A stretch of DNA of 40,197 nt from NCBI GenBank assembly GCA_903899885.1, contig CAIULK010000124.1:1-40197 (forward strand). Direction: 5' to 3'. The notes beneath the pieces are model-generated. The model was not told the DNA's origin. It worked only from the letters and a program-made list of their open reading frames with translations, and ran no database searches. The translations under genes and the position numbers were made by a program. This DNA is from an uncultured Rhodospirillaceae bacterium. GTDB taxonomy: Bacteria; Pseudomonadota; Alphaproteobacteria; Rhodospirillales; Magnetospirillaceae. Below are positions 15,298-26,575 of this stretch, piece after piece (the stretch's first letter is position 1; each line of letters opens with the position of its first letter).

Positions 15298-15399
15298 CCT
15301 GGGAGGCCGGCGGCGGGCGGACCTGTCGCCAACCCGGTCAGGTCCGGAAGGAAGCAGCCGTAACGATTTCCGGTCCGGGTCGCTGTCCGGTCTCCCACC
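15298..15399 (+). ncRNA. ffs: SRP RNA (4.5S)
   Basis: Contains the conserved domain IV loop of bacterial SRP RNA (GGTCAGGTCCGGAAGGAAGC at about 15336-15355). The ends pair as TGGGAGGCCGG with CCGGTCTCCCA, giving a hairpin of about 100 nt. The Ffh-binding GGAA and GCAG internal loops are intact. The gene lies directly after the acs terminator. Confidence 0.95.
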
Positions 15400-17148: not shown

Positions 17149-19830
17149 ATGGATGATCTTCTGAGTGAGTTTCTGACCGAAACCGGCGAAAGCATTGCGG
17201 TTTTGGACGTCGAGCTGGTCAAGCTGGAACAGAGTCCCGATCCGGCGGTCCTTCAGAACATCTTCCGTTTGGTCCACACGATCAAGGGCACCTGCGGGTT
17301 CCTGGGTCTGCCCCGGCTGGAGCATGTCGCGCACGCATCGGAAAACGTGCTGGGCAAATTCCGCGATGGCGAGCTGACCGTCACACCCAGCATCATCACC
17401 CTCATCCTCGGCGCCATCGATCGCATCAAGGCGATCTTGTCGCATCTTGAGCAGACCGAGTCGGAACCCGACGGCAACGACCAAGACCTGATCGATCAGC
17501 TCAACGCGGTCGCCGAAGGCGGCGAGGCGAAAGCCGAGCCGAAAAAAGCCAAGGTCAAGGCCGAAAAGCCGAAGGTCGAGATCAAAGCCGCCCCGGAACC
17601 CGAGCCCGAGCCGGAACCCGTGCGCGAGCCCGAGCCCGAGCCGGAGGTCGCCGCCGGCGAGGCGCACGAGGAGGCGCCCGTGCGCTCCAACGTGCCCGCC
17701 AATACCGCCCAGCCGCCCGCCGTCCGCGACGGCGGCAACCAGCTGTCGGCCGAGGGACCCAAGGATTCGGCGGTCGCCGCTCAGACCATCCGTGTCAATG
17801 TCGAGCTGCTTGAAAATCTGATGACCCTGGTGTCGGAACTGGTGCTGACCCGCAACCAGCTGCTCCAGATGGTCCGTGGCCGCGATGACAGCGAATTCAC
17901 CGCGCCGCTTCAGCGCCTGTCGCACATCACCACCGACCTGCAAGAAGGGGTGATGAAGACCCGCATGCAGCCGATCGGCAATGCCTGGGCCAAGCTGCCC
18001 CGCATCGTCCGCGATCTGTCGGTCGAAATGGGCAAGAAGATCGATTTGCAGATGCTGGGCGCCGAAACCGAACTGGACCGCCAAGTTCTGGAATTGATCA
18101 AGGACCCGCTGACCCACATGGTCCGCAATTCGGCCGACCACGGGTTGGAGCCGCCGAACGAGCGCAAGATGGCGGGCAAGCCGGAAATCGGCAAGATCGT
18201 GCTGAACGCCTATCACGAAGGCGGCCACATCATCATCGAGATCTCGGATGACGGGCGCGGCCTGAATATCGAGCGGATCAAGGCCAAGGTGTTGCAGAAC
18301 GGCCTGGCCACCGAGGCCGAGGTCGAAAGCATGACCGCGCAGCAGATCCAGCAGTTCATCTTCAAGGCCGGTCTGTCGACCGCCGAAAAGGTGACCTCGG
18401 TCTCCGGGCGCGGCGTCGGCATGGATGTCGTGCGCACCAATATCGAGCGGATTGGCGGCACCGTCGAAATGAAGAGCCAGCCGGGCCGCGGCTCGACCTT
18501 CATCATCAAGATCCCGCTGACCCTGGCCATCGTCTCGGCCTTGATCGTCGAATGCGCCGAGGAACGCTTCGCCATTCCGCAGATCAGTGTTCTCGAACTG
18601 GTGCGGGTGACCGCCAATTCCGAACACGGCATCGAGATGATCAACAATGCGCCGGTGCTGCGCCTGCGCGACCGGCTGTTGCCGCTGGTCAGCCTGAAGA
18701 AGCTGCTCAAGCTCAACGACGACAAGGACGCCGAACGTCAGGAAACCTTCATCGTCGTCACCCAGGTCGGCACCTACACCTTCGGCATCATCGTTGATCG
18801 GGTGTTCGATACCGAGGAAATCGTCGTCAAGCCGGTGGCGCCGATCCTGCGTCACATCACGATGTTCTCGGGCAACACCATCCTGGGCGATGGCTCGGTG
18901 ATCATGATCCTGGATCCGAACGGCATCGCCAGCTCGACCGGTGAATCGGGCATGCTGGGCGGCGGTCAAGCGGCCGAGGCGACCACCGCGCGCGACAGTC
19001 ATTCCGACTCCAAGACCTCGCTGCTGGTGTTCCGCGCCTGCGGCGACGACCTCAAGGCGGTTCCGTTGGCCCTGGTCGCCCGCCTGGAGGAAATCGACGT
19101 CAAGGATATCGAGCACAGCCACGGCAAGCCGATGGTCCAATATCGCGGCCATCTGATGCCCCTGCTGTCGGTCGATGGCTCGACCAACTTCCGCGCCGAG
19201 GGGCGCCAGCCGGTGCTGGTCTTCTCGGACCGCGACCATACGATGGGCCTCGTCGTCGAGGAAATCGTCGATATCGTCGAGGACCGCTTGAAGGTCGAGC
19301 TGACCGCCAACCAGCCGGGCGTGATCGGCACGGCGGTGATCGCGGGCAAGGCCACCACCATCGTCGATGCCGGCTACTATCTGCCGCAGGCCTTCGGCGA
19401 CTGGTTCGGCGCGGCGGCCAAGGATTTCGGCAGCAGCGACGACAGCGGCGCGCCGCGCCTGCTGCTGGTCGATGATAGTCCGTTCTTCCGCAATCTGCTC
19501 ACCCCCTTGCTGTCGGTCGCGGGCTACGACGTGGTCGCGGTCGAGGGCGCCGACCGCGCCCTGCATCTGCGCGAACAGGGGCGCGAGTTCGATCTGATCA
19601 TCAGCGACATCGAAATGCCGGGGATGAGCGGCTTCGAATTCGCGATGGCGGTTCGCGGCGATCCGCGTTGGCAGCATGTGCCGATGATCGCCCTGTCCTC
19701 GCATGCTTCGGACAAAGACTTCGAACGTGGCCGAATGGTCGGCTTCAACGATTACGTCGCCAAATTCGATCGTGACTCGTTGCTCTCGACCATCGCGCAA
19801 ACGATCGCCGCTCTGAAAGGTGCCGCATGA
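17149..19830 (+). CDS. cheA: Hybrid chemotaxis histidine kinase CheA with receiver domain
   Basis: Central chemotaxis kinase, 893 aa. HPt domain with His43 (LVHTIKGTCGF); no obvious P2 domain but a charged Ala/Lys/Pro-Glu linker at about 125-200 (EPEPEPEPVREPEPEPE). Dimerisation helices follow (ENLMTLVSELVLTRNQLLQM), then the kinase domain with N box HMVRNSADHGLE, G1 DDGRGLN and G2 GRGVGMDVV. Two CheW-like domains come next (SALIVECAEERFAIPQI; LLVFRACGDDLKAVPLALV), and a C-terminal receiver with Asp820 (LIISDIEMPGMSG). The duplicated CheW domain plus receiver is a known alphaproteobacterial variant. ATG at 17149 follows GGAGG. It overlaps cheW by 4 bp (ATGA). Confidence 0.96.
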   Translation: MDDLLSEFLTETGESIAVLDVELVKLEQSPDPAVLQNIFRLVHTIKGTCGFLGLPRLEHVAHASENVLGKFRDGELTVTPSIITLILGAIDRIKAILSHLEQTESEPDGNDQDLIDQLNAVAEGGEAKAEPKKAKVKAEKPKVEIKAAPEPEPEPEPVREPEPEPEVAAGEAHEEAPVRSNVPANTAQPPAVRDGGNQLSAEGPKDSAVAAQTIRVNVELLENLMTLVSELVLTRNQLLQMVRGRDDSEFTAPLQRLSHITTDLQEGVMKTRMQPIGNAWAKLPRIVRDLSVEMGKKIDLQMLGAETELDRQVLELIKDPLTHMVRNSADHGLEPPNERKMAGKPEIGKIVLNAYHEGGHIIIEISDDGRGLNIERIKAKVLQNGLATEAEVESMTAQQIQQFIFKAGLSTAEKVTSVSGRGVGMDVVRTNIERIGGTVEMKSQPGRGSTFIIKIPLTLAIVSALIVECAEERFAIPQISVLELVRVTANSEHGIEMINNAPVLRLRDRLLPLVSLKKLLKLNDDKDAERQETFIVVTQVGTYTFGIIVDRVFDTEEIVVKPVAPILRHITMFSGNTILGDGSVIMILDPNGIASSTGESGMLGGGQAAEATTARDSHSDSKTSLLVFRACGDDLKAVPLALVARLEEIDVKDIEHSHGKPMVQYRGHLMPLLSVDGSTNFRAEGRQPVLVFSDRDHTMGLVVEEIVDIVEDRLKVELTANQPGVIGTAVIAGKATTIVDAGYYLPQAFGDWFGAAAKDFGSSDDSGAPRLLLVDDSPFFRNLLTPLLSVAGYDVVAVEGADRALHLREQGREFDLIISDIEMPGMSGFEFAMAVRGDPRWQHVPMIALSSHASDKDFERGRMVGFNDYVAKFDRDSLLSTIAQTIAALKGAA

Positions 19831-20311
19831 ACCAGATCGTTCCCGCCAAGCGCCCCGGCACGGAGCTCGCCGCGCCCGAGACGCAAGATTTCGTGACCAT
19901 GTTGATCGAGGGGCAGCTTTTCGGCATCCCCGTGCTGACCGTGCAAGACGTGCTGGGTCCGCAAAAGATCACCCGTATTCCCCTGGCCCCGCGCGAGGTG
20001 GCCGGTTCGCTCAATCTTCGCGGCCGTATCGTCACCGCGATCGATGTCCGCCTGCGGTTGGGGCTGAGCCGGGGCAGCGACGACAAAAAGGGCATGAGCG
20101 TCGTTGTCGATATGGGCGGCGAGCTGTATTCGCTGATGGTCGATTCGGTCGGCGAGGTGCTGTCCTTGCCGTCGGCCAAGTTCGAACGCAACCCCCGACC
20201 CTGGATCCTCGCTGGCGTGAGTTCTCGATGGGAATTTATCGCCTGGAGGCAAAGCTTTTGGTTGTTCTGGACGTCAGTAAGCTTTTAGATTTCACCAGAG
20301 CGGATTACTAA
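19827..20311 (+). CDS. cheW: CheW coupling protein, frameshifted near C-terminus
   Basis: Adaptor between receptors and CheA; the start ATG overlaps the cheA stop. The first 120 residues are a normal CheW (FVTMLIEGQLFGIPVLTVQDV, GSLNLRGRIVTAIDVRLRL, MVDSVGEVL). After KFERN at about 20190 the frame reads PRPWILAGVSS and stops at 20288. The missing family C-terminus, PPTLDPRWREFSMGIYR and KLLVVLDVSKLLDF, is intact in the next frame, ending at 20311. Adding one C to the CCCCC run at 20192-20196 restores a 161-aa CheW. Either a sequencing or assembly indel or a recent mutation; the good state of the downstream frame argues that it is recent or artefactual. Confidence 0.85.
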
Positions 20312-20386
20312 ATAGGCTGAAACCCCGGGATGGACGAGCGGTTCGCCGGTTGGCCGCCCCACCCCAACAGAAAAGTGAGCGTGGGC

Positions 20387-20752
20387 ATGAAGTCGTGTCT
20401 GATCGTTGATGACTCGAAAGTCATCCGTATGGTGGCGAAGAAAATTCTCCACGAATTGAGCTTTAAGACGGAAGAGGCCGAGGATGGGCAGATGGCGCTG
20501 GACGCGTGCAAGCGCGCGATGCCCGACGCCGTTCTTCTGGACTGGAACATGCCCGTGATGAGCGGGATCGAATTCCTGCGGGAATTGCGCAATCTTCCGA
20601 ATGGCGATCATCCGATCGTGGTGTTCTGCACCACCGAGAACGATATCGAGCATATCCAAGAAGCGATTTCGGCCGGCGCCAACGAATACATCATGAAGCC
20701 GTTCGACAGCGAGATTCTTCAGGCGAAGTTTTCGCAAGTCGGCTTGCTCTGA
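20387..20752 (+). CDS. cheY: Chemotaxis response regulator CheY
   Basis: Single receiver domain of 121 aa that binds the flagellar switch when phosphorylated. The acidic pair is Asp8-Asp9 (LIVDDSKVIR), the phospho-acceptor Asp52 (LLDWNMPVMSG), the switch Thr is in VVFCTTEND, and the conserved Lys is in YIMKPFD. The ATG at 20387 gives the usual MKSCLIVDDS; upstream in-frame codons encode an unlikely Pro-rich extension. The ribosome site is weak (GTGAG). Set 75 bp after cheW in the operon. Confidence 0.96.
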   Translation: MKSCLIVDDSKVIRMVAKKILHELSFKTEEAEDGQMALDACKRAMPDAVLLDWNMPVMSGIEFLRELRNLPNGDHPIVVFCTTENDIEHIQEAISAGANEYIMKPFDSEILQAKFSQVGLL

Positions 20753-20787
20753 TTTTTTCCTGATTTGTCGGAGCGTAGCGCGCGGTG

Positions 20788-21930
20788 ATGGCACTCGACC
20801 CAACTTATTCCTCAGCCGGGGCCGCCGGCGATCCAGTCCGCGTGATGATCGTGGACGATTCGGCCGTGGTTCGTGGACTGGTGACCCGTATCCTGGAAGA
20901 GGATAGCGGGGTTTCGGTCGTCGCTTCGGTTGGCAATGGCCAGATGGCGTTGACGACCCTGGAGCGAACCGATGTCGATGTCATCCTGCTCGACATCGAA
21001 ATGCCGGTGATGGACGGTTTGACGGCCTTGCCCAAGCTGTTGAAAATCGACCCCGGCGCGCGAGTCATCATGCAGTCGACCTTGACCCTGAAAGGGGCCG
21101 ACGTCTCGCTGCGGGCGATGGAGGCGGGGGCCGCCGACTATATCCCGAAACCGACCAGCACCCGCGATCTGGCGGGCGGCATGGATTTCAAGACCGAATT
21201 GCTGGGTAAGGTCAAGGCGCTGGGACAGGCGCGCAAGCGCGATCCCCGCCGTGTGCAACGGCCAGGGGCCAGCACGGCTCCGCGTCCGGTCGTTCCGCGT
21301 CCGGCGGCCGCGCCCGCGGCCCCCCCGGCCTTGCGCACCCAGGCGCTGGAGATTCCCGATATCATCGCCATCGGCAGTTCGACCGGCGGGCCGCAGGCCC
21401 TGTTCGGTTTGTTGGGGACGATGCGGGCCGGAACCGTGCGGCAGCCGATTCTGATCACCCAGCACATGCCCGCGACCTTTACGACGATTTTGGCCGAACA
21501 CATCTCGCGCGTGTCGGGCTGGGATGCCCGCGAAGGCCAGGACGGCGAGGTGATTACCGGGGGGCGGGTCTATATCGCGCCCGGCGATTTCCACATGGTG
21601 GTCGAAACCAAGGGTGCCGAGCGGGTGATCCGCCTGAACAAGAACCCGCCCGAAAACTTCTGCCGTCCGGCGGTCGATCCGATGTTCCGCAGCATAGCCG
21701 CCGCTTACGGCAAGCGCGTGTTGGCCTGTGTGCTGACCGGCATGGGTGCCGATGGCGCCAAGGGTGGGCAAGCGGTGGTCGCGGCCGGTGGATCGGTGAT
21801 CGCTCAGGACGAGGCGACCAGCGTCGTTTGGGGCATGCCGGGAGCGACCGCGAACGCCGGGGTCTGCTCGGCGATTCTGCCGTTGCCGGAGGTCGCGCCG
21901 TGGATCATGAAACTGGCGACAAGGCGTTAG
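20788..21930 (+). CDS. cheB: Receptor methylesterase/deamidase CheB
   Basis: Removes receptor methyl groups when phosphorylated. 380 aa. N-terminal receiver with Asp69 (VILLDIEMPVMDG) and KP motif at 121-122; an Ala/Pro-rich linker at about 155-182; C-terminal esterase with catalytic Ser198 (IGSSTGG), His226 (TQHMP) and Asp322 (TGMGADG). A GTG at 20785 directly before the ATG is an alternative start with no better support. It ends 4 bp before cheR, so methylation and demethylation enzymes are coupled. Confidence 0.96.
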   Translation: MALDPTYSSAGAAGDPVRVMIVDDSAVVRGLVTRILEEDSGVSVVASVGNGQMALTTLERTDVDVILLDIEMPVMDGLTALPKLLKIDPGARVIMQSTLTLKGADVSLRAMEAGAADYIPKPTSTRDLAGGMDFKTELLGKVKALGQARKRDPRRVQRPGASTAPRPVVPRPAAAPAAPPALRTQALEIPDIIAIGSSTGGPQALFGLLGTMRAGTVRQPILITQHMPATFTTILAEHISRVSGWDAREGQDGEVITGGRVYIAPGDFHMVVETKGAERVIRLNKNPPENFCRPAVDPMFRSIAAAYGKRVLACVLTGMGADGAKGGQAVVAAGGSVIAQDEATSVVWGMPGATANAGVCSAILPLPEVAPWIMKLATRR

Positions 21931-21934
21931 TGTC

Positions 21935-22744
21935 ATGAAACCCGATGAATTCGATTTTATCGCCAAGGTTTTGAAGGAACGTTCGGGCCTGATCATCACC
22001 CCGGACAAGGCCTATCTTTTGGAAAGCCGGTTGACCCCGGTCGCGCGTCGGCGTGGCTTGAAGGGTGTTGATGATTTGATGGCGGGTCTGCGCGGCGCCT
22101 CCGAGGAGCTGCTGCGCGAGGTTACCGAAGCGATGACGACCAACGAGTCGTTTTTCTTTCGCGACACCAAGCCGTTCGATCAATTCAAATCGCTGGTGCT
22201 GCCGCTGCTTTTGCAAAATCGCGCGGGCCGCAAATCGTTCCGAATCTGGTCGGCCGCCTGCTCGTCGGGCCAGGAAGCCTATTCGCTGGCGATGATCTTG
22301 AAGGAGGAGGCGGCCCGCCTCGCCGGTTGGAAGATCGAGATCGTAGGCACCGATATTTCGATCGAGATGCTGGAAAAGGCCAAGGCCGGGCTGTATTCAC
22401 AGTTCGAGGTCCAACGCGGCCTGCCGATCCAGTTGCTGGTCAAATACTTCAAGAAAACCAACGAGATGTGGCAGATCGATCCGGCCATCCGGGCGATGGT
22501 CCAGTACCGCGAATTCAATCTGTTGCACGACCTGAAAATCCTGGGTCAATTCGACGTCGTGTTTTGCCGCAACGTCTTGATCTATTTCGATCAGGCGACC
22601 AAGACCCGCGTCTTGGAGAATATCAGCAAGTCGATGCCAGACGACGGCCTGCTGTATCTGGGTGGCGCCGAAACGGTGCTGGGGATCTCCGACCGCTTCC
22701 ACCCGGTTCCCGACCAACGCGGGATCTACGCGCTGAACAAATGA
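21935..22744 (+). CDS. cheR: Receptor methyltransferase CheR
   Basis: SAM-dependent O-methyltransferase acting on receptor glutamates. 269 aa. N-terminal helical domain (FDFIAKVLKERSGLIITPDK) with TTNESFFFRD, then the SAM-binding core IWSAACSSGQEAYSLAM, VGTDIS, and VVFCRNVLIYFD; the C-terminus reads GGAETVLGISDRFHPV. All are family hallmarks. Last gene of the operon and closed by a hairpin terminator beginning 8 bp after the stop. Confidence 0.97.
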   Translation: MKPDEFDFIAKVLKERSGLIITPDKAYLLESRLTPVARRRGLKGVDDLMAGLRGASEELLREVTEAMTTNESFFFRDTKPFDQFKSLVLPLLLQNRAGRKSFRIWSAACSSGQEAYSLAMILKEEAARLAGWKIEIVGTDISIEMLEKAKAGLYSQFEVQRGLPIQLLVKYFKKTNEMWQIDPAIRAMVQYREFNLLHDLKILGQFDVVFCRNVLIYFDQATKTRVLENISKSMPDDGLLYLGGAETVLGISDRFHPVPDQRGIYALNK

Positions 22745-22809: not shown

Positions 22810-23748
22810 TCAGTTCGCCCGGGTAACCTTGCTGGGCATCACCAACTGCACGGTTTCCTGTGACACCGCGATTTCGGCGGGCAGGCGGGCGATGATATCG
22901 CCATCGGCCTGAACCGGTGCGCCGCGCGGGCCAGTAATGGTCAAGGATTGCGCCGAGACCATTTGCACTTCCGGCAGGCGCGACAATTGGCCGAGCGGCA
23001 GGGCCAAGCCGTACCGCAGCATCCCGGCCACGCCCTTGTTCGGCAGAATACAGATTTCCAGCGACGAACTGCCGAGGTCGGCTTCGGGTGCCGCAACGAA
23101 GGGGCCGCCGTAATGACGTCCCTTGCAAGCCACCGCCATCCGTCCGCAATAGGTCTGCCCATCCGCGCGAATTTCCAGCGCGGGGAAATCGTAGCCCAAA
23201 GCCTGGCGAACGCCTTCGACGACATAGGCCATCTTGCCGGTGCAGCGTTTCAGCACCGAGTGCAGATTGATCCCCTCGACCACCCGCGCATCCAGACCAG
23301 CGCCCGCCATCAACACGAAATGGCGGCTGTTGGCGATGCCAAGACGAACCTGTTTTGTCGCGCCGAAGGCAATGGTGTTGGCGACCTGTTCGGCGTCCTT
23401 GGGATCAAGGCCGATCTCGCAGGCCAGCACATTGGCGGTGCCCATCGGAATGATCGCCAGCATTGGCGGATTCTCGGCGCCCGCCAGCCCATTGACCATT
23501 TCATTGACGGTGCCATCGCCGCCGGCGGCGGCGACCACGTCCCAATCTTGTTCCACCGCCTCGCGGACGAAGCGTTCGGCATCACCCCGGCGTTGGGTTT
23601 CCCGCGTCACCACATGGCAACCCAGTTGTTCAAGGCGGGCCAGGACGAGGGCCAAATGCCGCCGACGCCGACGCCCGGCGGTGGGATTGTGGATGATCAG
23701 CACGCGGCGGCCTTGAACCAAAGCCGGAGTGCCCAAGGCGGGGAGCAT
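22810..23748 (-). CDS. Diacylglycerol kinase-family lipid kinase (YegS/DgkB-like)
   Basis: 312 aa. DAGK catalytic domain with NPTAGRRRRRH, the nucleotide motif AAAGGDGTVNEMVNGL and IPMGTANVLACEIGL, then GAGLDARVV and the C-terminal beta sandwich ending QADGDIIARLP. The family phosphorylates diacylglycerol or related lipids; substrate is not fixed by sequence. The ATG at 23748 (MLPALGTPAL) has CAGGAAA upstream; earlier in-frame starts lack a ribosome site. Divergent from a phosphoesterase-glycosyltransferase pair that in other alphaproteobacteria makes and uses diacylglycerol, so recycling of diacylglycerol to phosphatidate is a sensible but inferred role. Confidence 0.88.
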   Translation of the reverse strand: MLPALGTPALVQGRRVLIIHNPTAGRRRRRHLALVLARLEQLGCHVVTRETQRRGDAERFVREAVEQDWDVVAAAGGDGTVNEMVNGLAGAENPPMLAIIPMGTANVLACEIGLDPKDAEQVANTIAFGATKQVRLGIANSRHFVLMAGAGLDARVVEGINLHSVLKRCTGKMAYVVEGVRQALGYDFPALEIRADGQTYCGRMAVACKGRHYGGPFVAAPEADLGSSSLEICILPNKGVAGMLRYGLALPLGQLSRLPEVQMVSAQSLTITGPRGAPVQADGDIIARLPAEIAVSQETVQLVMPSKVTRAN

Positions 23749-23815
23749 TGAGGTTTCCTGTATCATGAGATAGTTTAATACAGCAAGGGCACTTGCCGTG
23801 TAATGTGAATTAACG

Positions 23816-23844
23816 ATGACACATTGATTTCGATAGAGTGACAT
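23816..23844. promoter_or_regulatory. Direct repeats resembling Pho-box half-sites
   Basis: ATGACAC (23816-23822) and GTGACAT (23838-23844) share TGACA in direct orientation, 22 bp start to start, i.e. two 11-bp PhoB units. On the minus strand they read GTGTCAT and ATGTCAC, close to the PhoB heptamer CTGTCAT. The middle unit matches poorly. Orientation points toward the lipid kinase gene, but the site also overlaps the upstream side of the plus-strand promoter. Confidence 0.35.
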
Positions 23845-23845
23845 T

Positions 23846-23874
23846 TTGTTTGGCGCCGACGATACCAATATACA
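23846..23874 (+). promoter_or_regulatory. Likely promoter of the phosphoesterase gene
   Basis: TTGTTT (23846-23851), 17 bp, TATACA (23869-23874, followed by AT). The predicted start near 23881 is about 50 bp before the ATG at 23932. The region 23749-23931 is the most AT-rich intergenic part of this area and must also hold the divergent promoter, for which TTACAC-N17-TATTAA on the minus strand is a weak candidate. Confidence 0.5.
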
Positions 23875-23931
23875 ATCCAGGGACGCCTACACTACATATT
23901 GCGTCTATTGAAATCGGGTTCCTTGGCGAGC

Positions 23932-24816
23932 ATGAACGCGCCCACCGAAAACACGCGGCACTATCGCGCAATCTGGATTTCCGACGTCCATCTGGGGACT
24001 CGGGGCTGTAAGGCCGACATCCTTCTTGATTTTCTGCGCTACACCGAAAGCGACTCGCTCTATCTGTTGGGCGATATCGTCGATGGGTGGCGTCTGAAAC
24101 GGTCCTGGTATTGGCCGCAAGCCCACAACGACGTCGTCCAGAAGCTGCTGCGCAAGGCCCGTAAGGGCACCCGCGTGCTGTTCATTCCCGGCAATCACGA
24201 TGAATTCGCCCGTGACTATGATGGACTGTCGTTCGGCGACATCGAGGTCGCGGAAGAGGCGATCCATGTCACCGCCGATGGGCGGCGCTTATTGATGATG
24301 CATGGCGATGTTTTCGACGGTGTCGTCAAATACGCCAAATGGCTGGCCCATTTGGGCGACGGCGCCTACACCTTCGCGCTGTGGCTGAACCACTGGCTGA
24401 ATCTGGTCCGCCGCCGCATGGGTTTGGCCTATTGGTCGCTGTCGGGCTATCTCAAGCACAAGGTCAAGAACGCCGTGCAGTATATCGGCAATTTCGAAAC
24501 CACGATGGCCGACGAGGCGCGTAAACGTGGTGTCGATGGCATTGTGTGCGGCCACATCCATCATGCCGAACAGCGCGATATCGACGGGGTGTTGTACCTC
24601 AACGATGGCGATTGGGTGGAAAGCTGTACCGCGTTGGTCGAACACCAGGATGGCCGTATCGAGGTCCTCCGGTGGATGGAGGTTGCGCCTTTGTCCGAGG
24701 CCGCCGTGCCGGCGGTTTCAGAAGCGGCGAGTCAGGAGATGGAATGCGCATACTCGTCGTTTCGGATGCTTGGTATCCCCAAATCAATGGCGTGGTTCGC
24801 ACGCTTGACGCTCTAA
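23932..24816 (+). CDS. PlcP/LpxH-like calcineurin-type phosphoesterase
   Basis: Metallophosphoesterase with all dinuclear-metal motifs: SDVHLG (D-x-H), GDIVDGW, GNHDE, MHGDVFD and GHIHHAE. 294 aa from ATG 23932; TTG 23899 is possible. The family is usually annotated UDP-2,3-diacylglucosamine diphosphatase. The long form with RLKRSWYWPQAHNDVVQKLLRKARKG and the pairing with a GT4 glycosyltransferase fit better with PlcP, the phospholipase C that releases diacylglycerol in phosphate-limited alphaproteobacteria. This is inference from family memory. The last 24 codons overlap the next gene by 73 bp, and the tail after EVAPLSEAAVPAVSEAASQ is unlike the family, so a small indel near 24735 or natural overlap are both possible. 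Confidence 0.85.
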   Translation: MNAPTENTRHYRAIWISDVHLGTRGCKADILLDFLRYTESDSLYLLGDIVDGWRLKRSWYWPQAHNDVVQKLLRKARKGTRVLFIPGNHDEFARDYDGLSFGDIEVAEEAIHVTADGRRLLMMHGDVFDGVVKYAKWLAHLGDGAYTFALWLNHWLNLVRRRMGLAYWSLSGYLKHKVKNAVQYIGNFETTMADEARKRGVDGIVCGHIHHAEQRDIDGVLYLNDGDWVESCTALVEHQDGRIEVLRWMEVAPLSEAAVPAVSEAASQEMECAYSSFRMLGIPKSMAWFARLTL

Positions 24817-25847
24817 AAGCCGAACTCCTGACCAGCGGCCACGAAGTGGTCCTGGTCACGCCCGACCGCTTTCGGACCATCGCTTGCCCCAGCTATCCCG
24901 AGATTCGGCTGGCGCTGCGGCCGTCGCGGCGCGTGGCGCGGTTGATCGCGGCGGCGCAGCCCTGCGCCATTCACATCGCGACCGAGGGACCCTTGGGCTG
25001 GGCGGCCCGGCGCTATTGCGTCAAATCGGGTCTGCCCTTCACCAGCGCCTATCACACCCGCTTTCCCGAATATGTGCAGGCCCGCTGGCGGATTCCGCTG
25101 GGATTGTCCTATGCCGTGATGCGCCGCTTCCATGGCGCCTCGTCGCGGGTGATGGTCGCCACCGCCGGAATCGAAAACGAGCTGGTCGCGCGCGGGTTCG
25201 GCAATATCGGCCGGTGGAGCCGGGGGGTCGATACCAAGATGTACCGTCCCCGGCCCGAGTTGAAGGGGCCGGACGGGCCGTTCGCCGGACTGCCGCGTCC
25301 GATTTTCTTGTATGTCGGCCGTGTCGCGGTCGAAAAGAATATCGAGGCGTTCCTGTCGCTGGACCTGCCCGGCACCAAGGTGGTGGTTGGCGATGGGCCC
25401 ATGCTGACCACGTTGCGGCATCGCCATCCCGAGGTGCGGTTCCAAGGCGCGCGGGTCGGCGAGGATTTGGCCCACCAGTACGGTGGTGCCGATGTCTTCG
25501 TTTTCCCCAGCCGAACCGACACGTTTGGGCTGGTGTTGCTGGAGGCCCTGGCTTCCGGGCTGCCGGTGGCGGCTTATCCTGTCCCCGGTCCGCGCGACGT
25601 GATCGGCGCGATCCCGGTTGGCGTCTTGAGCGAGGATCTTCATGCCGCCGCGCTGGAGGCGACGACGCTGTCGCCCGAGGCGTGCCGCGATCATGCGTTG
25701 CGCTTTTCCTGGCAAGCCTCGGCCAACCAGTTCATCGACAATCTATCGCCGTTTGAAACCAGTGTGTGGCGCGACGCTCAGTGCCACAAAATCCAGATGG
25801 CCGCCCCGGTTCCGACCAGGATGCGCCAAACCGCGAACGGCGCGTAA
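24744..25847 (+). CDS. GT4-family glycosyltransferase (Agt-like candidate)
   Basis: GT-B fold glycosyltransferase, 367 aa from ATG at 24744 (MRILVVSDAWYPQINGVVRTL) with GGAG upstream. The N-terminal domain has HEVVLVTPDRF and HIATEGPLGWAAR; the C-terminal donor domain has YVGRVAVEKNIEAFL, VVGDGPML and the EX7E-type FPSRTDTFGLVLLEALASGLPV. Similar proteins use UDP- or GDP-sugars on lipid acceptors. Together with a PlcP-like phosphoesterase it would form a phospholipid-replacement pair. It overlaps the phosphoesterase by 73 bp and the convergent uppP by 70 bp. The C-terminal 25 residues (DAQCHKIQMAAPVPTRM) look non-conserved, as expected for read-through into uppP. Confidence 0.9.
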   Translation: MRILVVSDAWYPQINGVVRTLDALKAELLTSGHEVVLVTPDRFRTIACPSYPEIRLALRPSRRVARLIAAAQPCAIHIATEGPLGWAARRYCVKSGLPFTSAYHTRFPEYVQARWRIPLGLSYAVMRRFHGASSRVMVATAGIENELVARGFGNIGRWSRGVDTKMYRPRPELKGPDGPFAGLPRPIFLYVGRVAVEKNIEAFLSLDLPGTKVVVGDGPMLTTLRHRHPEVRFQGARVGEDLAHQYGGADVFVFPSRTDTFGLVLLEALASGLPVAAYPVPGPRDVIGAIPVGVLSEDLHAAALEATTLSPEACRDHALRFSWQASANQFIDNLSPFETSVWRDAQCHKIQMAAPVPTRMRQTANGA

Positions 25848-26575
25848 CTGCGCCGCCGGACCCATGCGGTCATCGCCGCGGCCGCCGCTAGCGCGGCAAG
25901 GGCGGCGATTCCGGCGGTGATCGCCAAATCCTGCGACCAGACCAAGCTCACCCGGTGTGACAGCTCCCAGGCCGAGGTGACGGCGCCGACGGCCACGCTG
26001 GGAAGCAGCAGCAGCAAGGCGAGGCGGGCCGCCTCGTCGCGCTCGTAACCGACCAAGCGCGTGACGGTCAGCACGATGCCGGTCCGCGAGACGCCGGGCA
26101 CGATCGCCAGGGCCTGAATGGCCCCGATGATCAGGGCGCTGCCATAGCTCATGTGATCGACGCGTCGCACCGTCATTCCCAGTTTGTCGGCAATCAGCAG
26201 GGCCAAGCCGCAGGCCGCCATCACCACGGCGCCGATCAGCGCCCCGGTCACCGATATCCCGGCATGCCCCAGCCCCCACGCGATCGATATCGCCGGAATG
26301 CTGCCGACCAGAATTTTGAAGAAAAGCCGGGTTCCGGCGTCCGGCCGGCCCTTGATCAGCCGCCAGACCCCAATTCCCATCGCCAGCATATCGCGCCCCA
26401 AATAAAGCGTGACGCCAAGCAGAAGGCCGCCGTCCGCCGCCAGGGTTACCGCCAGACGCTGATCGGGATCAACGCCAAACGGCCCCAGCAGCGCCAAGTG
26501 CGCGGACGCGCTCAACGGCAGCACTTCGGCCGCGGCTTGCAGCGCGGCCATCACGATCACTTCGAGGAACGTCAT
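25778..26575 (-). CDS. uppP: Undecaprenyl-diphosphatase UppP (BacA)
   Basis: Membrane pyrophosphatase recycling undecaprenyl diphosphate for peptidoglycan and LPS glycan synthesis. 265 aa with about eight hydrophobic segments. Motif 1 AEVLPLSASAHL (family: LPVSSSGHL, so Ser/Ala variants here) and motif 2 VPGVSRTGIVLTVTRLVG hold the catalytic Glu, Ser and Arg. The altered first motif suggests a divergent paralogue, and a second uppP elsewhere in the genome is likely. 76 bp downstream of proC, same strand. Its last 70 bp overlap the end of the convergent glycosyltransferase. Confidence 0.88.
   Translation of the reverse strand: MTFLEVIVMAALQAAAEVLPLSASAHLALLGPFGVDPDQRLAVTLAADGGLLLGVTLYLGRDMLAMGIGVWRLIKGRPDAGTRLFFKILVGSIPAISIAWGLGHAGISVTGALIGAVVMAACGLALLIADKLGMTVRRVDHMSYGSALIIGAIQALAIVPGVSRTGIVLTVTRLVGYERDEAARLALLLLLPSVAVGAVTSAWELSHRVSLVWSQDLAITAGIAALAALAAAAAMTAWVRRRSYAPFAVWRILVGTGAAIWILWH

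Follow-up and report, generated by a model that had tools for sequence, protein, structure and literature searches.

A lipid kinase gene divergent from plcP-agt in Rhodospirillales-type Alphaproteobacteria: conserved linkage and a putative role in diacylglycerol salvage

Gene content of the locus

The stretch of DNA analysed here (the window) comprises the 40,197 bp of contig CAIULK010000124.1 from an uncultured Rhodospirillaceae bacterium (GCA_903899885.1), and the subject of this report is a group of three genes at positions 22810–25847. On the minus strand lies the gene for a YegS/DgkB-type lipid kinase, a putative diacylglycerol kinase of 312 aa (22810–23748). Divergent from it on the plus strand are plcP (23932–24816; 294 aa), encoding a calcineurin-type metallophosphoesterase that is a putative membrane-phospholipid phospholipase C, and agt (24744–25847; 367 aa), encoding a GT4 glycosyltransferase that is a putative diacylglycerol glycosyltransferase. 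The plcP-agt pair adds one more member to a known system; the novelty lies in the conserved divergent kinase. Together the three genes probably form a lipid-remodelling locus for phosphate limitation, in which the kinase would serve as a salvage valve for diacylglycerol.

Positions 22810 and 25847, the bounds set by an earlier sequence-only reading, are both ends of open reading frames (ORFs). The kinase ORF spans 22810–23868, but translation more likely begins at the ATG at 23748, ahead of which stands AGGAAA. Since plcP starts at the ATG at 23932 (its stop codon ending at 24816), the gap between the two genes is 183 bp. The agt gene starts at an ATG at 24744, with an AGGAG 5' of that ATG and within plcP, and the overlap of the two genes (24744–24816, plus strand) is exactly the 73 bp that the sequence-only reading had given. 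The same reading placed the divergent gene in the diacylglycerol kinase family and made it a partner of the pair, took the transferase to be of the Agt type and judged the phosphoesterase to be of the PlcP rather than the LpxH type, and all of these assignments are supported by the evidence given below.

Conservation of the kinase–plcP–agt linkage

Among 100 genomes of the window's order with a completeness of at least 85 %, PlcP (called at E <= 1e-40) is present in 60, and in 47 of these the kinase lies divergently beside plcP, with 144–404 bp between the matches. Additionally, agt is adjacent in 46 of the 47, being directly downstream of plcP in the window and in 45 of the 46 other linked genomes. 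A second collection, drawn from named genomes and limited to the 80 best PlcP loci, with loci that have little flanking sequence counted as misses, has the divergent kinase beside plcP at 29 loci, including those of Magnetospirillum, Novispirillum, Nitrospirillum, Azospirillum, Reyranella, Thalassospira and Pacificispira; at the other 51 PlcP loci, profile searching for a kinase of the same clade yielded none further. The order set and the second collection overlap in species, and five kinase pairs in the tree described below are identical across the sets. In a sample of 144 genomes of the class, the kinase (E <= 1e-25) was found in 43, and a divergent plcP is present at 19 of the 30 kinase loci fetched out of 46 matches, the window included. 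Recurrence of the divergent layout in 47/60 genomes of the order and at 29/80 loci of the second collection is more than chance would give, and a chance neighbourhood is rejected by its reappearance in the class sample as well. The kinase is thus a conserved partner of plcP-agt. In five PlcP genomes of family f18 (L095, L099, L102, L103 and L104), neither agt nor the kinase adjoins plcP.

DgkA, a membrane kinase unrelated to the soluble-type kinases, occurs in seven of the 100 order genomes. It is found in 5 of the 13 PlcP genomes that lack the divergent kinase versus 1 of the 47 that have it (Fisher p 0.0012), while the seventh DgkA genome is without PlcP. The tree used for this comparison excludes G065, in which PlcP is broken across two contigs, and so counts 12 rather than 13 kinase-less genomes; on it, functional replacement of the kinase by DgkA has only two independent pairs on supported branches (five on all branches), and the sign test is not significant. 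Replacement is therefore kept as a hint.

Family and clade of the lipid kinase

The kinase ORF matches the Pfam domains DAGK_cat (104.3 bits) and YegS_C (54.9 bits), as well as the NCBIfam model TIGR00147 (YegS/Rv2252/BmrU), for which its score of 161.7 lies above the cut-off of 118.65. Its closest match in the PDB is DgkB of Staphylococcus aureus (2qv7; E 1.1e-30), which aligns with residues 13–307 of 312, and a GGDGT motif stands at residue 76. In a kinase tree of 97 rows, 92 of them different, a 97 % branch sets 11 other DAGK_cat proteins apart from a group made up of 76 plcP-linked kinases, nine that are unlinked and one extra copy. Only this split is relied on, because the tree was built by a quick method, 32 of its 89 inner branches are open and several branches, including that of L092, are long. 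The second DAGK_cat kinase of the window's own genome, on contig C214, falls among the 11 outside proteins. This distant kinase (L004/L119, G000:C214) forms a group with L173, L174 and L179, which are copies from three same-family genomes.

At the positions of DgkB Asp97, Asp215 and Glu273, which we take to be active-site or metal-site residues, the window kinase has V, G and D, respectively, whereas Asp68 of the GGDG motif is retained. GGDG is likewise retained in all 76 linked kinases, and position 273 is acidic in every one of them. For sphingosine kinase 1, similarity to DgkB has led to the prediction of a magnesium site formed by Asp341 and Glu343 (PMC4466670), and we infer that this site corresponds to the motif around positions 271–273 here.

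A kinase of the clade also occurs in eight order genomes without PlcP at the E <= 1e-40 threshold. Three of these kinases lie at a contig edge (G057, G019 and G043), and three, from genomes of three families (G055, G074 and G010), stand in tandem with a PF00884 protein; of the remainder, that of G044 is beside HpnL and that of G011 beside a molybdopterin enzyme. The tandem PF00884 proteins (kinase loci L089, L090 and L092) have 650–672 aa and four to five N-terminal hydrophobic segments, and among NCBIfam models they come closest to phosphoglycerol transferase I and lipoteichoic acid synthase, followed by OpgB, with every score far under the cut-off. Since the three genomes contain only two, three and one PF00884 genes, respectively, the tandem arrangement is unlikely to be due to chance. 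Enzymes of the LtaS/OpgB type remove the head group of a phospholipid and leave diacylglycerol, as does PlcP, and the tandem hints at diacylglycerol as the substrate of the kinase; it is possibly an envelope glycerophosphate system.

Additionally, one order genome (G083) has a second, unlinked kinase of the clade besides its linked one, and 11 of the 30 fetched class-level kinase loci have no adjacent plcP, locus L184 having just 290 bp upstream. The neighbours of the unlinked class-level kinases match a solute-binding protein, a chorismate-binding enzyme, an ABC transporter, an inositol phosphatase, a dienelactone hydrolase, a luciferase-like protein, LPG_synthase_TM, DUF374 and YidD; the scan of neighbouring ORFs at L192 gave no match. 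As a general rule, the idea that the kinase always stands beside a producer of diacylglycerol is rejected, given these mixed neighbours and those in G044 and G011.

PhoB-type repeats between the kinase gene and plcP

The window's own genome encodes PhoB (342.5 bits; cut-off 296.2), for which the box consensus is CTGTCATNNNNCTGTCAT (PMC8528852). Between the kinase gene and plcP, a candidate PhoB-type array, made of 11-bp repeats that read toward the kinase, was recognized by eye at 23805–23844 on the minus strand, its units being, from low to high coordinate, AATTCAC, GTGTCAT, one that is degenerate and ATGTCAC. PhoB-type repeats are strong for the group of related regions and weak or absent for the window alone. 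Across 55 non-redundant kinase–plcP regions, out of 76, pairs of TGTCA-like units (one mismatch allowed) are enriched at spacings of 11, 22 and 33 bp, with z values of 8.2, 9.2 and 4.5 on the kinase-facing strand and of 6.2, 3.1 and 5.3 on the plcP-facing strand. A two-unit box reaching a score of 9.5, with unit weights chosen by the authors, is present in 30 of the 55 regions versus 2.8 +/- 1.6 in shuffles, and the better box is kinase-facing in 44 regions and plcP-facing in nine, the other two being ties. Coding-sequence controls, which covered spacings of 9–13, 21–23 and 32–34 bp only, have no peak at 11 or 33; the plcP coding control reaches z 14.3 at 22 bp, a peak ascribed to conserved codons.

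Upstream regions of plcP genes without the kinase were also gathered (62 regions, or 49 after removal of near-copies), a set that includes contigs with short upstream sequence, where in a few cases a kinase may lie past the contig end. At spacing 11, repeats face plcP at 22 of these loci (z 14.5) and face away from it at nine (z 4.3). At one locus, L035, where a box faces away from plcP, the divergent gene belongs to DUF1045, a family associated with phosphonate operons. The repeat pattern and L035 favour PhoB control of the divergent gene, under a box-orientation rule that is itself uncalibrated.

The plcP-agt pair

PlcP proteins are calcineurin-type metallophosphoesterases with the motif set DxH, GDxxD, GNHD and GH, and the phosphoesterase, which has a Pfam Metallophos domain, contains all four (DVHLG at residue 18, GDIVDGW at 47, GNHDE at 87 and GHIHHA at 207). 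Its identity with six betaproteobacterial PlcP homologues is 59–66 %, compared with 29 % over 126 residues for LpxH of Escherichia coli; the PlcP/LpxH tree included PlcP homologues rather than characterised PlcP proteins, together with one LpxH. Structures of LpxH match it weakly, at E 1.6e-5 at best, and it has GNHD where these structures have GNRD. The sequence-only reading had expected automatic annotation to name this protein LpxH, but among NCBIfam models it falls far below both LpxH cut-offs (44.7 against 134, and 37.9 against 190.35). The gene is a single match in its own genome (3.44 Mb, 269 contigs), and the separate lpxH or lpxI for which that reading had suggested a search is present as LpxI, away from the locus on contig C24 (LpxI_C, 160.4 bits), so that the UDP-diacylglucosamine hydrolase step of lipid A synthesis is covered. 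LpxH identity is therefore rejected; the phosphoesterase is PlcP-like, with a predicted Mn-dependent phospholipase C activity of the kind that remodelling requires. Elsewhere in the order, a second, more distant PlcP (54 % identity; G040:C10:72825–73556) accompanies the linked module in one genome.

The transferase combines the Pfam domains Glyco_transf_4 and Glycos_transf_1 and contains GRVAVEKN at residue 192, FPSRTDTFG at 254 and His104 within HTRFPE, as located by sequence rather than by alignment with GTcp, the protein for which the motifs GRVAxEKN and FPSxTDTFG and a catalytic His104 have been described (PMC8231724). It is of the Agt type, and would putatively glycosylate diacylglycerol with UDP-glucose or UDP-glucuronic acid. 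The overlap with plcP is not peculiar to the window, as 32 of 46 relatives (L122–L167) have a PlcP match that continues for 39–84 bp within the Agt match, which suggests conserved translational coupling.

Relation to known systems

Remodelling by PlcP and Agt is a widespread means of phosphorus saving in heterotrophic bacteria (PMC4796936), with a proposed pathway from phospholipid to diacylglycerol to glycolipid (PMC8231724), and the operon-like pair with its Pho boxes is already established (PMC4796936, PMC9239053, PMC8528852). The locus resembles the PlcP-Agt operons of Pelagibacter HTCC7211, Methylosinus OB3b and Pseudomonas aeruginosa (PA3219–PA3218) in that agt directly follows plcP, in its Agt motifs and, at the level of the group of related regions, in Pho-box type promoter signals (PMC4796936, PMC9239053, PMC8231724, PMC8528852). 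It differs from them in the divergent DAGK-family kinase that shares the promoter region and in the PhoB-type repeats that, across the group, more often face the kinase. The word 'kinase' does not occur in the main texts of PMC4796936, PMC9239053, PMC8231724 and PMC8528852, and no description of a kinase as a neighbour of plcP was found in the open-licence literature searched, figures and supplements apart; a gene-context figure, as in PMC4796936, could thus show the kinase unnamed.

Three other kinases offer points of comparison. Soluble diacylglycerol kinase DgkB of S. aureus (2qv7) is the best solved relative and shares the GGDGT motif, but the window kinase is substituted at positions 97, 215 and 273. 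E. coli DgkA recycles the diacylglycerol that arises from head-group transfer by OpgB and EptB; it thereby resembles the proposed role in that a kinase salvages diacylglycerol left by head-group-removing enzymes, whereas the kinase here is of the soluble type and adjoins PlcP or, in three genomes, PF00884 proteins. In Pseudomonas putida BIRD-1, DagK is listed with PlcP, OlsA and OlsB among the proteins enriched under phosphate depletion, and the discussion of that study calls all four PHO-dependent (PMC5082522). As a diacylglycerol kinase enriched together with PlcP, DagK is like the kinase proposed here and offers the closest support in print for the proposed mechanism; it is not described as a neighbour of plcP in the passages that concern it (PMC5082522).

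Proposed function and alternative explanations

Under phosphate limitation, PlcP would cleave membrane phospholipids into diacylglycerol and a phosphoalcohol, and Agt, translated from the overlapping frame, would convert the diacylglycerol into glucosyl- and/or glucuronosyl-diacylglycerol. The kinase would phosphorylate diacylglycerol that Agt leaves unused, returning it as phosphatidate to phospholipid synthesis and keeping free diacylglycerol low. Since it is probably induced by PhoB along with plcP-agt from the shared 183-bp region, the three enzymes together would determine how diacylglycerol is shared out at the branch point, acting as a salvage valve rather than as an on/off reversal. 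More specifically, and tentatively, we propose that in Rhodospirillales-type Alphaproteobacteria the PlcP-Agt system has a third, PhoB-induced member in this distinct, DgkB-related clade, which is substituted at three active- or metal-site positions and might run a phospholipid–diacylglycerol–phosphatidate cycle that sets the glycolipid share of the membrane during phosphate starvation.

Several observations weigh against the salvage-valve reading, and they concern the kinase itself, its distribution and its promoter. At DgkB position 97 all 76 linked kinases have V, at position 273 there are 66 with D and 10 with E, and just 20 of the 76 retain Asp215, so that the chemistry or substrate of the linked kinases may differ from that of DgkB. 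The kinase is missing from 13 of the 60 PlcP genomes of the order, its unlinked relatives in the class sample have assorted neighbours (10 of 11 loci scanned), and L092, one of the three kinases in tandem with PF00884 proteins, forms a long branch of unsure placement. DgkA is encoded in the window's own genome (L118, G000:C93:1588–1884), on a contig with a GC content of 0.636, like the window's 0.645, and could fill the proposed role itself. Taken alone, the box in the window is weak (p 0.105 and 0.05 in two tests), and a scan of the window with the Pho-box consensus, allowing up to three mismatches, found no match at the kinase–plcP locus, its single match being at 17885–17902, against a chance expectation of 1.66 matches. 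Across the group, z values of 3.3–3.9 are also seen on the plcP-facing strand at some spacings other than multiples of 11, and in the kinase-less set spacing 14 reaches z 5.4 and 4.3. When six pstS promoters were used as a yardstick for orientation, one, that of the own genome, was significant, and it faces away from pstS. Finally, in the passage on the phoBR mutant of P. putida, the proteins lost include PlcP and OlsAB, and DagK is not named there (PMC5082522).

The alternative that survives best, itself rather unlikely, is that the kinase acts on another lipid, such as a lysolipid, a ceramide-like lipid, a glycolipid or an undecaprenol-type alcohol, and that nothing more than shared Pho control underlies its linkage to plcP-agt. 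This would accord with the substitutions at the DgkB-equivalent positions 97, 215 and 273, with the mixed neighbours outside PlcP loci and with the presence of a bacterial ceramide kinase in the same larger lipid-kinase family (PMC10331486). However, the best solved relative is a diacylglycerol kinase, and the tandem with LtaS/OpgB-like PF00884 proteins recurs in genomes of three families. Somewhat less probable again is the reversible switch advanced by the sequence-only reading, in which plcP-agt would be expressed when phosphate is short and the kinase upon its return, to convert diacylglycerol into phosphatidate. Such a switch would employ the same enzymes in the same conserved divergent layout; divergent promoters allow opposite regulation, and a kinase-facing box could in principle repress. 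Yet the predominance of kinase-facing boxes (44 versus 9), if read by the uncalibrated orientation rule, favours co-induction with plcP-agt over reversal, and in P. putida DagK and PlcP are both called PHO-dependent (PMC5082522). The notion that the phosphoesterase is the LpxH of lipid A synthesis and its other neighbours are coincidental, which the weak matches to LpxH models and structures might prompt, is extremely improbable in view of the missed cut-offs, the GNHD motif, the far closer PlcP homologues, the presence of LpxI and the agt gene that adjoins plcP in nearly all linked relatives.

If the salvage-valve reading holds, a conserved and probably co-regulated kinase would add to PlcP-Agt remodelling a route by which diacylglycerol returns to phosphatidate, and with it a handle on how cells avoid the build-up of diacylglycerol and set their ratio of glycolipid to phospholipid. 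A known system would thereby gain a conserved third gene, apparently undescribed in the literature searched, that may serve as a marker for remodelling-capable genomes and whose clade is directly testable.

Flanking features

On the kinase side, the locus is flanked by a chemotaxis cluster (17149–22744, plus strand) that ends 65 bp short of the kinase 3' end; its CheR was identified through Pfam, and its CheA, CheW, CheY and CheB were judged from the translations only. A bacterial small signal recognition particle RNA is located at 15302–15398 on the plus strand (62.2 bits). Downstream of agt and convergent with it is a BacA/UppP-family gene (25778–26575, minus strand) that overlaps the 3' end of agt by 70 bp; it scores 137.7 bits with Pfam BacA and does not reach the cut-off for any of the 12 NCBIfam UppP models listed.

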